Assembly (NCBI RefSeq): GCF_004765795.1
Contig: NZ_SBIV01000005.1
Coordinates: 1-64,000, forward strand
Source of the DNA: Halorussus marinus
Lineage (GTDB): Archaea > Halobacteriota > Halobacteria > Halobacteriales > Haladaptataceae
DNA length: 64,000 nucleotides
Direction of reading: 5' to 3'
Under the pieces are notes generated by a model. The model saw nothing but the letters and a program-made list of their open reading frames with translations. It searched no databases and was not told the DNA's origin. Within the stretch, counting starts at the first letter, position 1. Every line of letters starts with the position of its first letter. Position numbers and translations under genes: made by a program. Shown here in pieces: positions 38,564-41,266 of the stretch.

Positions 38564-38602
38564 TCGGTCCGGTCGAGTCGCCGAGTCGGGCGGTCGCCCG
38601 CG

Positions 38603-38763
38603 ACCCCGTCGTTTCCGCTGTCTGCCCTCACGGGGCGTGCGGCCGGTCCACACCGGTGTTTCCGTTGTTTCGTCGCCGGGCCCGCGGCGGGTCTGCGGTT
38701 CGTCGCGACACCGATGTTTCCGGTGTTTATTCCGCGGCCCGATCACTCCGCAGTTTCCGCTGT
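38603..38763 (-). repeat. ORB group 1: four leftward origin-recognition boxes
   Basis: Four 19-base elements on the minus strand at 38603-38621, 38650-38668, 38708-38726 and 38745-38763. Each reads ACA(G/C)CGGAAAC or ACAACGGAAAC followed by a G-rich end. The first matches the consensus ACAGCGGAAACGACGGGGT. They lie between the kinase gene and orc1/cdc6. ORF frames across them show no coding character. Confidence 0.8.
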
Positions 38764-38872
38764 TTCGCCCGGCCGAACGCGACCGGACGGCGAGAGCCGA
38801 ACTCCGCGAGCGCGACCGGCGTTCGGCGCGGTCGACGAGACTCCCGGACCGATACGGGGTCGAGAGCGTCGA

Positions 38873-39001
38873 ACAGCGGAAACGGTGGGGTAATTGATGG
38901 GTCGTGGGCACAGCGGAAACGGTGGGGTAATTGATGGGTCGTGGGCACAGCGGAAACGGTGGGGTTCGGTTCGGCGGTCGAAACAGCGGAAATCGTGGGG
39001 T
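38873..39001 (+). repeat. ORB group 2: four rightward boxes, including a 37-bp tandem repeat
   Basis: ACAGCGGAAACGGTGGGGT occurs at 38873-38891, 38910-38928 and 38947-38965, and a variant (AAATCG) at 38983-39001. The first two units with their spacer are identical over 37 bases; spacings are 37, 37 and 36. The group ends 48 bases before the orc1/cdc6 stop. G-rich ends face orc1/cdc6, opposite to group 1. Confidence 0.85.
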
Positions 39002-39048
39002 TGGGGCGACGGGGAGGCCGACGAGTGATTTTCGGGGTCGCTCGCGGG

Positions 39049-40290
39049 TCACTCCTCGATGTCGCCGAACGTGGTCTGGTAGTACGGCCTGATGCTGTCG
39101 TGGACGCCGGCGAACTCGATCGTCTCTTCGAGCGCGCTGACCACCAGTTGGAGGTCCTGTTTCAGGGCGTGTTCGCGGTACTTGCCCCCGGACATCCCCT
39201 CGTTTTTCTCGGTCGAGGAGATGACCCCGAGCATGGCGAGGTCGGCGAGGTGGTCGCGCATCCGACGGCTGGTGAGCGGTTCGGTGCCGACGTGGTTGCA
39301 CAGCTGTTCGTACCGGGGTCGGATGTCGCGCGAACGAGCGGGCGTCGTCTCCTCGGCCTCGAGCGAGGTGAGCGCGTAGAGGATGAGTCGGGCGTGCTCG
39401 GTCAGGTCGGCGACCCCCTCCATGATGCGGTCGCGTTCGAGCTTCTCGCGTGCCTCTTGGACGTGCTCGTCGGTGACCTGCTCGACGGCCTCCTTCCGGG
39501 CGAGATCGCCGGCCTCCAGCAGGAGATCGAGGGCCTGTCGGGCGTCGCCCGCGTCCTGTGCGCCGTAGGCCGCACAGAGCGGGATCACGTCCTCGGCGAG
39601 CGCCGCCTCGTGAAAGGCGACCTGCTCGCGCTGGCTCAACACCTTCTGGAGTTCGGTGGCGTCGTACGGCGGGAACGACACCTCCTTCTCGCAGAGCGAC
39701 GACCGGACCTTCGCGGAGAGCGAGTCGCGAAACGAGAGGTCGTTCGAGATGCCGATGAGCCCGATCTTGGCGTCTTCGAGGTAGCCGTTGCTCCGTGCGC
39801 GCGGGATCTGATAGAGGATGGAGTTGTCGTTGATGTGATCGACCTCGTCGAGGACCACGATGATAGTTCCGCCGACCTTGTCGAGTTCCTCCCAGAGGAA
39901 ACTGTACACCTGCGCTTGTGGGTAGCCGGTGTTGCTGATCTGTTCGGACGGGGTTCGGAGCGTGTTGACGAGTCGCACTGCCACCTGATAGCTCGAGTTG
40001 AGACCGTCACAGTTGATCTCGATCACGTTCAACGAGATGTCGTCGTACTTGGCGGCGTCGTCCTGGAGACGGTTGAGGAGAAATCGGGTCGCGGCGGTCT
40101 TGCCGACGCCGCTCTTGCCGTAGAGGAAGATGTTCGACGGGGCCTCGCCGTTGATGATCGGTTGGAGTGCGGCGTGGTACTCCTCCAACTCGTCGTCGCG
40201 ACCGACGAGGTTGTTCGGGGTGTACTCCTCCAGCAAGGCGTCGCGGTTCTTGTAGAGGGAGTTGTCCCGATCGAAACTGAACGATGACAT
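39049..40290 (-). CDS. orc1/cdc6: Orc1/Cdc6 replication initiator
   Basis: 413-residue AAA+ initiator that binds ORB elements and loads the MCM helicase. The N-terminal LVGRDDELEEYHAAL precedes Walker A GKSGVGKTAAT; Walker B with sensor elements is IIVVLDEVDHI; sensor 2 lies in GDARQALDLLLEAG. The C-terminal 80 residues form the winged helix that contacts DNA (PLTSRRMRDHLADLAMLGVI). The sequence differs from the main haloarchaeal oriC1-type Cdc6, so a secondary origin is likely. ATG at 40290 agrees with a TATA element GGATTTATG (minus strand) at 40315-40323, giving a leaderless mRNA. ORB clusters lie on both sides. Confidence 0.94.
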   Translation of the reverse strand: MSSFSFDRDNSLYKNRDALLEEYTPNNLVGRDDELEEYHAALQPIINGEAPSNIFLYGKSGVGKTAATRFLLNRLQDDAAKYDDISLNVIEINCDGLNSSYQVAVRLVNTLRTPSEQISNTGYPQAQVYSFLWEELDKVGGTIIVVLDEVDHINDNSILYQIPRARSNGYLEDAKIGLIGISNDLSFRDSLSAKVRSSLCEKEVSFPPYDATELQKVLSQREQVAFHEAALAEDVIPLCAAYGAQDAGDARQALDLLLEAGDLARKEAVEQVTDEHVQEAREKLERDRIMEGVADLTEHARLILYALTSLEAEETTPARSRDIRPRYEQLCNHVGTEPLTSRRMRDHLADLAMLGVISSTEKNEGMSGGKYREHALKQDLQLVVSALEETIEFAGVHDSIRPYYQTTFGDIEE

Positions 40291-40314
40291 GAACTGTCGT
40301 TGGGTGGACGACCA

Positions 40315-40323
40315 CATAAATCC
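40315..40323 (-). promoter_or_regulatory. TATA element of orc1/cdc6
   Basis: GGATTTATG on the minus strand, 27-29 bases before the ATG. An ORB-like element at 40330-40348 lies directly upstream, so the initiator may repress or sense its own promoter. Confidence 0.65.
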
Positions 40324-40329
40324 ACAGGG

Positions 40330-40452
40330 CGACGGCGGTGTCCGCTGTTTCTTTTGTTCGATTCTTTTTAACTCAAGGCGTCGTTCCCGGAGGCCGTGGT
40401 TTCCGTTGTCGGATCTGACTTAAACACACACCCACCCCATCGTTTCCGGAGT
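40330..40452 (-). repeat. ORB group 3: three leftward boxes beside the orc1/cdc6 promoter
   Basis: Minus-strand elements at 40330-40348 (ACAGCGGACACCGCCGTCG, degenerate), 40391-40409 (ACAACGGAAACCACGGCCT) and 40434-40452 (ACTCCGGAAACGATGGGGT). They border the AT-rich tract on its left. Confidence 0.7.
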
Positions 40453-40484
40453 CTTCGACGGGATCGGCAGGAGGGGGTTCGAGT

Positions 40485-40635
40485 TGGTATTTAATTTGGG
40501 AACCTTTATTACCCAAGACAGCAAACGATATCCGTAGGACAATTAGTCAAAATAGACTATTATATCTCTCGGTTTGCTGTGCGTATTTTCTAGGAAGCGA
40601 AGACGATACCTCGCTAATATTGACAGTATTTGATC
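40485..40635. other. AT-rich tract, candidate duplex-unwinding element of the origin
   Basis: About 150 bases that are clearly AT-richer than the surrounding DNA (for example TATTTAATTTGGG and AATAGACTATTATAT). It contains inverted repeats: ACAGCAAAC at 40518-40526 against GTTTGCTGT at 40572-40580, and TAGTC/GACTA around 40544-40558. It lies between leftward ORBs and rightward ORBs. No gene is present. Confidence 0.75.
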
Positions 40636-40709
40636 CCCGACGAACAGCCGCCGGATCGTGGCGGGCCGATTGTGGCGTCCCAACCCCCTCCCCACTGTTC
40701 TCGCGGAAA

Positions 40710-41231
40710 ACAGCGGAAACAGTGGGGTGGGTGTGTGGCCGCCCTTTCGCCCCGTCCCCGCACCCGCCGCCCCGAGACAGCGGAAACGACGGAGTGAGCG
40801 TCAGTCCCACGACCAACTGTCGACCTCTCTCGACGTCTTTTCCGGCCGAAATCGGCCTCAGCCGGCCAGTGGGTCTCGAACGAGCGACCGTAGACAACGG
40901 AAACCGCGGTGTTGGTGGCCGTGAGTCGGACCCAAAACGAGGCTCGTCTCGTGACCGAAACACCGGAAACGGTGGTGTTACCGTGACCCGTGGAGACCGA
41001 CGCGCCGCCGATCTTCCGCCTCAGTTGGCGGCGTTCCTCGTCGTATCGTCGGGTGGGTAGCCTCGATAGTGTCGAAATCGCGAGGCTGAACGTCCGGTCT
41101 CGACGCCGTAAGCCAACTGGCACGACACACGGAACCGTCCCAAAACAGCGGAAATCGTGGGGTTACGTTCGGCTTCGAGCGCTCCGGTCCGAACGGCTCC
41201 GATCGCTTCGAGACAGCGGAAACGGCGGGGT
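40710..41231 (+). repeat. ORB group 4: six rightward boxes
   Basis: Elements at 40710-40728 (ACAGCGGAAACAGTGGGGT), 40777-40795, 40894-40912, 40960-40978, 41145-41163 and 41213-41231. Each has the CGGAAA core with a G-rich 3' end. The first lies in a larger inverted repeat, CCCCACTGTT with AACAGTGGGG. The segment to 41266 holds no convincing gene and completes a non-coding region of about 975 bases. Confidence 0.8.
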
Positions 41232-41266
41232 CGTGACACGGTGAGACAAAAGGGCCGATCGGTCGG

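Follow-up and report, generated by a model that had tools for sequence, protein, structure and literature searches.

The analysed stretch (hereafter the window) covers 64 kb at the start of contig C5 (NZ_SBIV01000005.1; 310,881 bp in total) of Halorussus marinus. It contains an orc1/cdc6 initiator gene directly flanked by two arrays of origin recognition boxes (ORBs). Together, the arrays comprise 17 elements, 16 strong ORBs (ACANCGGAAAYNNNGGNGT) and a marginal one as scored with a position weight matrix (PWM), and their consensus is ACA-N-CGGAAA-Y-NNN-GG-N-GT. The downstream array, past the gene, holds four leftward and four rightward elements (38602-39002), and the upstream array, before the gene, three leftward and six rightward ones (40329-41232). 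In each array the leftward copies come first, followed by the rightward copies, with the G-ends pointing outward. Haloarchaeal origins are characterized by an initiator gene adjacent to ORBs, inverted ORBs with G-strings on either side of an AT-rich tract and an inflection of nucleotide skew at the site; all three features were found here. The true start of orc1/cdc6 is likely the ATG at 40290, where the alignments of relatives begin.

An earlier note on this DNA had described 17 such elements around the gene, with an AT-rich tract between opposing groups. We recovered the whole set at these positions and in these orientations, and the tract was confirmed between the inner ORBs of the upstream array. 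The description of all elements as CGGAAA with a G-rich end applies to the 16 strong copies, which reach 18.9 to ~30 bits in leave-one-out PWM scoring, and not to the marginal element next to the gene. With the weight matrix built from the elements, 17 sites of at least 10 bits were detected in the window, every one inside the locus, compared to 2.7 expected (maximum 8) in 64 kb of first-order random sequence. Perfect ACANCGGAAAYNNNGGNGT matches in the whole 3.76-Mb genome are confined to C5, with 14 at the locus and three at remote sites. The upstream array encloses a gap of 257 bp between the inner ORBs, and the AT-rich core of this gap (40,501-40,600) is 62% AT versus ~31% in the genome. 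Within the window, the extended G-string GGGGTGGGTGTGTG occurs only on the two ORBs edging this tract. The inner ORB on the gene side abuts a conserved TTTAAGT motif which may represent the orc1 promoter, an arrangement that makes autoregulation of orc1 likely; the TTTAAGTC motif next to its G-string is kept in most of 15 Halorussus loci. The coordinates of all features are given in Table 1.

Table 1. Features of the orc1/cdc6 locus in the window (d, downstream array; u, upstream array).
Feature	Position	Strand	Details
ORB d1 (G-end left)	38602..38621	-	ACAGCGGAAACGACGGGGTC, 28.7 bits
ORB d2	38649..38668	-	ACAACGGAAACACCGGTGTG, 25.2 bits
ORB d3	38707..38726	-	ACACCGGAAACATCGGTGTC, 25.0 bits
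ORB d4	38744..38763	-	ACAGCGGAAACTGCGGAGTG, 26.3 bits
Switch point, downstream array	38764..38872	.	109 bp, 27% AT, no unwinding tract
ORB d5	38873..38892	+	29.6 bits; exact 37-bp tandem duplicate with d6
ORB d6	38910..38929	+	29.6 bits
ORB d7	38947..38966	+	30.8 bits
ORB d8	38983..39002	+	28.4 bits
orc1/cdc6 initiator gene	39049..40317	-	TIGR02928, 452 bits (cut-off 181); Cdc6_lid and Cdc6_C domains
Marginal ORB-like element, doubtful	40329..40348	-	ACAGCGGACACCGCCGTCGC, no G-end, 9.0 bits (leave-one-out)
ORB u1 (between gene and AT-rich tract)	40390..40409	-	22.1 bits
Possible TATA-like orc1 promoter element (putative role)	40416..40424	-	TTTAAGTC, adjoins G-string of inner ORB
Inner ORB u2, extended G-string	40425..40452	-	ACTCCGGAAACGATGGGGTGGGTGTGTG
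Presumed duplex-unwinding element, AT-rich	40453..40709	.	core 40501-40600, 62% AT; raw skew maximum of C5 at 40500
Inner ORB u3, extended G-string	40710..40737	+	ACAGCGGAAACAGTGGGGTGGGTGTGTG
ORB u4	40777..40796	+	27.6 bits
ORB u5	40894..40913	+	28.7 bits
ORB u6	40960..40979	+	29.2 bits
ORB u7	41145..41164	+	28.4 bits
ORB u8	41213..41232	+	29.2 bits

Both arrays are present in all 15 Halorussus loci, though ORB positions and copy numbers turn over. An inner pair with a GGGGTGGGTGT-type extension was identified in 14 of the loci; for G097, the inner position was assigned to another element. In the replicons of four relatives (303-415 kb; H. salilacus, G058, G102, and G136 without its last 14.6 kb), the mean-corrected cumulative GC skew reaches its global maximum 11-57 bp away from the predicted tract, and the skew amplitudes exceed those of all 500 block shuffles. 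The uncorrected cumulative maximum of C5 is found at 40,500. It can be reasoned that the ORBs do not create the maximum themselves, because their orientation would bias the local skew in the opposite direction. Taken with the homology of the initiator, these data leave little doubt that the locus is the replication origin of a replicon of ~316 kb.

The gene is the sole Orc1 gene of C5, as are its counterparts on the replicons of H. salilacus and H. pelagicus (G066:C2 and G058:C2). Its product is 94-97% identical among Halorussus orthologues, which in named complete genomes are encoded on plasmids between 303 and 558 kb in size. C5 starts on the left with the reverse complement of the 5' end of archaeal 16S ribosomal RNA (rRNA), and 5S is found at its right end, in the same orientation as the 16S; C5 would close through one rRNA operon to give the ~316-kb replicon. 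An end-to-end overlap of C5, sought as proof of circularity, was not found, since both ends sit in the rRNA operon. These contig ends also suggest that the operon is carried by the replicon itself. On the H. salilacus plasmid, to which ~53% of C5 aligns (blastn), an rRNA operon lies ~49 kb from orc1, versus ~39 kb on C5. As far as sequence comparison goes, a ~0.3-Mb replicon, in effect a second chromosome, is inherited across Halorussus and Haladaptatus, and the locus appears to be its primary Orc1/Cdc6 origin, probably the only one.

Apart from the origin, the replicon carries further ORBs. In the host genome, perfect remote copies are located at C5:232,944, 233,155 and 291,436, all beyond the window and thus out of reach for the earlier note. 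Among 12 Halorussus genomes, we counted 41 perfect ORBs at remote positions on orc1-bearing contigs (5.1 Mb) versus four in the remaining ~47.8 Mb, i.e. ~8 versus ~0.08 per Mb, a roughly 95-fold excess (genome sizes rounded). Two Halorussus species without the cognate Orc1 had zero and one match. Locus A is the single ORB at C5:291,436, within a gene for an HpcH/HpaI aldolase (PF03328). Locus B comprises up to seven ORBs arrayed in intergenic DNA; its neighbours in most Halorussus are an open reading frame for a 46-aa zinc-ribbon protein and genes for a DUF7471 membrane protein, a winged helix-turn-helix (wHTH) protein and a flavin adenine dinucleotide (FAD) oxidoreductase. Further dispersed ORBs are present on Haladaptatus replicons. 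Loci A and B are thus conserved candidate initiator sites that share a replicon with the origin and lie far from it, which is one feature of datA/DARS-like elements. It is probable that the remote ORBs are bound by the cognate Orc1, and the chances are even that they act on initiation. Their fixed distant places, even inside a gene, suggest an action of the initiator far from the origin.

The main rival explanation for the remote sites is that they are operators through which Orc1 would regulate the transcription of a small number of replicon genes (those of the membrane-protein/zinc-ribbon/oxidoreductase region and of the aldolase operon), without a role in replication timing. The intergenic position of array B beside these genes and the wHTH gene in most Halorussus would agree with this, as would the lone conserved ORB inside one gene, which suggests a local job; furthermore, the non-initiator Orc1-2 of Sulfolobus is reported to be a transcription regulator (PMC9738581). 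However, distances and neighbours differ between species, the intragenic ORB lies 84 codons into the gene and not at a promoter, and similar satellite ORBs around the chromosomal oriC1 suggest a link to replication. We consider an operator function possible, if rather unlikely, and prefer to view the remote ORBs as sites acting on replication.

On the coding strand, the intragenic ORB reads GAC ACC GGC GTT TCC GGT GTC. In 13 Halorussus aldolase genes, GTT and GGT account for 6% of the valine and 11% of the glycine codons, respectively. Both are invariant in these 13 genes, while neighbouring Leu and Val codons vary, and among 92 windows of seven codons the ORB window shows the highest conservation. 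The element has also been kept in eight of nine other Haladaptataceae genes, although their proteins are only ~50-57% identical to the C5 aldolase, and in these genes the Gly codon above the free NNN of the ORB varies. In the ninth gene (G082) the ORB is lost and a second intragenic ORB, 105 codons further on, is kept; most relatives of G082 have this second ORB as well. Aldolase paralogues off the replicon lack the intragenic ORB, and in G156, which has no cognate Orc1, the aldolase orthologue resides on the oriC1-bearing contig and reads GTC GGG GGC. Judging from this codon pattern, the intragenic ORB is selected as DNA. That the 19-mer is instead kept for the protein sequence, or as an mRNA hairpin with ACACCGG/CCGGTGT arms, we judge unlikely to a high degree. 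HpcH/HpaI proteins are indeed conserved in the stretch around DTGVSGV, and the 19-mer comes close to a palindrome, but neither would explain fixed rare codons next to freely varying ones, a variable Gly codon precisely over the NNN in Haladaptatus, or the lack of the 19-mer in paralogues and in the chromosomal copy of G156. Moreover, the third base of GTT would fall in the hairpin loop and is still conserved, and the second ORB of Haladaptatus uses unrelated codons and is not palindromic.

The two arrays at the locus do not seem to form one symmetrical origin. The upstream array would be the origin proper, whereas the downstream one, an ORB-rich region without unwinding tract directly behind the initiator gene (8 ORBs, gap of 27% AT), fits an oriC2D-type negative regulator. 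In Haloarcula hispanica, oriC2D follows cdc6E, contains 11 ORBs, has no autonomously replicating sequence (ARS) activity, restrains oriC2, probably by titration, and cannot be deleted alone (PMC3936714). Differences are that oriC2 lies on the main chromosome beside oriC1 and that remote ORBs are not described in the oriC2D paper. By analogy, we lean towards the downstream array being a titrator of the initiator. Alternatively, the downstream array could be the origin itself or an equal half of a bipartite origin; its leftward-then-rightward, divergent order in 15 of 15 Halorussus loci would be expected of a symmetrical origin. However, the gap between its halves is shorter and less AT-rich than the upstream one (26-145 bp and 26-52% AT across the Halorussus loci), the skew maximum sits at the upstream tract and the analogous oriC2D was inactive as ARS, making this alternative very unlikely. 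The ORB plus spacer at 38,873-38,946 is duplicated exactly as a 37-bp tandem, so that a mode of array growth is visible in this region.

Even less credible is the reading that the main chromosome has a secondary, weak or dormant origin here. In its favour, about 11 Orc1/Cdc6 genes are present in the genome, several of them accompanied by ORBs of their own, and dormant haloarchaeal origins are known (PMC4595724). However, the gene is the sole Orc1 of its replicon, its orthologues sit on plasmids of their own in those complete Halorussus genomes that have this Orc1, and the GC-skew maximum is exactly at the locus; Haladaptatus pallidirubidus alone has the orc1 unit within a main-chromosome record. 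The term "secondary origin" in the earlier note is therefore misleading, whereas its proposal of an origin gains support from homology, from conservation in the 15 loci and from the skew maxima. It was also right in excluding an initiator of the oriC1 type. The oriC1-type gene and its ORBs are found on contig C10, and a search of C5 for such an initiator or ORB (TCCACNYGAAACGNNGGGG) was negative. The predicted ORB dialect of its own is borne out within the host genome, where perfect matches occur on C5 only.

Among characterized systems, the closest relative is oriP-cdc6K of the H. hispanica megaplasmid pHH400, likewise a megaplasmid origin with a single adjacent orc1/cdc6. Knockout and marker frequency analyses identified oriP as the unique and undeletable origin of pHH400 (PMC3936714). 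As on C5, the initiator is the only one of the megaplasmid, and its ORBs share their architecture with those on C5 (ACAGCGGACAY...GGTGT); most lie upstream of cdc6K and three downstream. Unlike the ORBs described here, with their CGGAAA core, those of oriP have CGGACA, i.e. a sister dialect, and the downstream array is smaller. The initiator is 60% identical to Cdc6K over 395 residues without gaps; since initiators with at least 80% identity are assigned to one family (Wu 2012), the locus represents a new family of a known kind, an origin with a downstream array. Relatives at 60-63% identity appeared to be devoid of ORBs in a perfect-pattern search, which found no CGGAAA sites; the PWM scan overturned this, as they use CGGACA. 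The sister initiators on Haloarcula pHMA411 (L180) and pHH400 (L179) thus go along with a one-base change of the ORB core, for which the responsible initiator residues could be mapped. Origin II of Halorubrum lacusprofundi (Hla_3512) and Haloquadratum (HQ2959A) has a published ORB, TAACAGCGGAAACAGTGGGGTGGGGGGGT, that equals our inner ORB ACAGCGGAAACAGTGGGGTGGGTGTG almost letter for letter. There, two ORB types are found beside one gene, unlike the single type here.

From the anatomy, its conservation, the replicon specificity, the skew maximum and the codon constraint on the intragenic ORB, we infer a sequence of binding, unwinding and titration in which the remote sites take part. Orc1/Cdc6 encoded at 39049-40317 would bind its own ORB dialect, and the two ORBs with extended G-strings at the edges of the tract (40453-40709) would position it to open the AT-rich DNA. 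MCM could then be loaded onto the opened tract, leading to bidirectional replication. The downstream array, lacking a duplex-unwinding element, may sequester excess initiator and dampen initiation, in the manner of oriC2D with Cdc6E in H. hispanica. The three remote ORBs of C5 would bind Orc1 as well, most likely as titration or timing sites. We think it likely that this explanation, comprising origin, titrating downstream array and remote ORBs, is correct as a whole. Several points weigh against it. The mean-corrected (detrended) skew maximum of C5 is 24 kb away from the tract and only the raw one coincides with it, and the circularity of C5, a draft contig, is deduced rather than read. The likeness to oriC2D is one of layout. 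The PWM scan detected no remote ORBs on pHH400 or on the corresponding H. marismortui replicon, so they are unnecessary for origins of this kind. A single intragenic ORB adds little titration capacity beside ~16 origin sites, and a local role could explain it better. Finally, the intragenic ORB has decayed in two on-replicon Halorussus genes (lost in G114, one mismatch in G176).

Control of origins at a distance is established in bacteria, where initiation is tuned by initiator-binding sites located outside the origin, namely datA and DARS in E. coli and crtS and 39-mers in Vibrio. These sites bind DnaA or RctB, bacterial proteins unrelated to Orc1. For archaea, the literature we found ties titration only to an origin-adjacent array, and no earlier report of remote or intragenic ORBs was found in the open-access literature; subscription journals may hold one. 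With the origin and its downstream array, a known arrangement now also covers a widespread second-chromosome family; the remote ORBs would be the new part, and an action of Orc1 on them, if true, would be an archaeal counterpart of datA, DARS or crtS. It may equally turn out either way whether haloarchaeal replicons in general carry conserved, replicon-specific satellite ORBs, some of them coding, kept synonymously and erased off the replicon, through which Orc1 sets copy number or timing remotely. The intragenic ORB could be removed by silent changes leaving the protein untouched, which would allow a cheap and specific test.

In six out of six Halorussus genomes, oriC1 is accompanied by satellites of its ORB type at distances of ~10 kb and ~5 kb, and further ones reach out to ~250 kb (G000:C10:8,714-93,579 in the host, and the chromosomes of five other Halorussus). 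The principle of satellite ORBs may thus be a general one. The H. salilacus replicon has a second copy of the ACACCGGAAACGCCGGTGT 19-mer at G066:C2:213,397 (L137), where neither the aldolase nor its neighbour genes gave a match. A rule that the G-ends of remote ORBs face the origin was true for nearly all Halorussus sites, which are not independent owing to conserved synteny; it is broken in Haladaptatus and at G066:213,397, and was rejected as a general rule. In H. pallidirubidus (NZ_CP085301; L029 and L030, G190:C1 1.46-2.41 Mb), orc1 and every ORB site occur twice, 551,849 bp apart, reflecting either a megaplasmid-sized tandem duplication within the chromosome record or an artefact of assembly. 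Two near-identical origin units ~47 kb apart were also detected on one 434-kb plasmid of Halorussus aquaticus (NZ_CP100401; L023 and L026).

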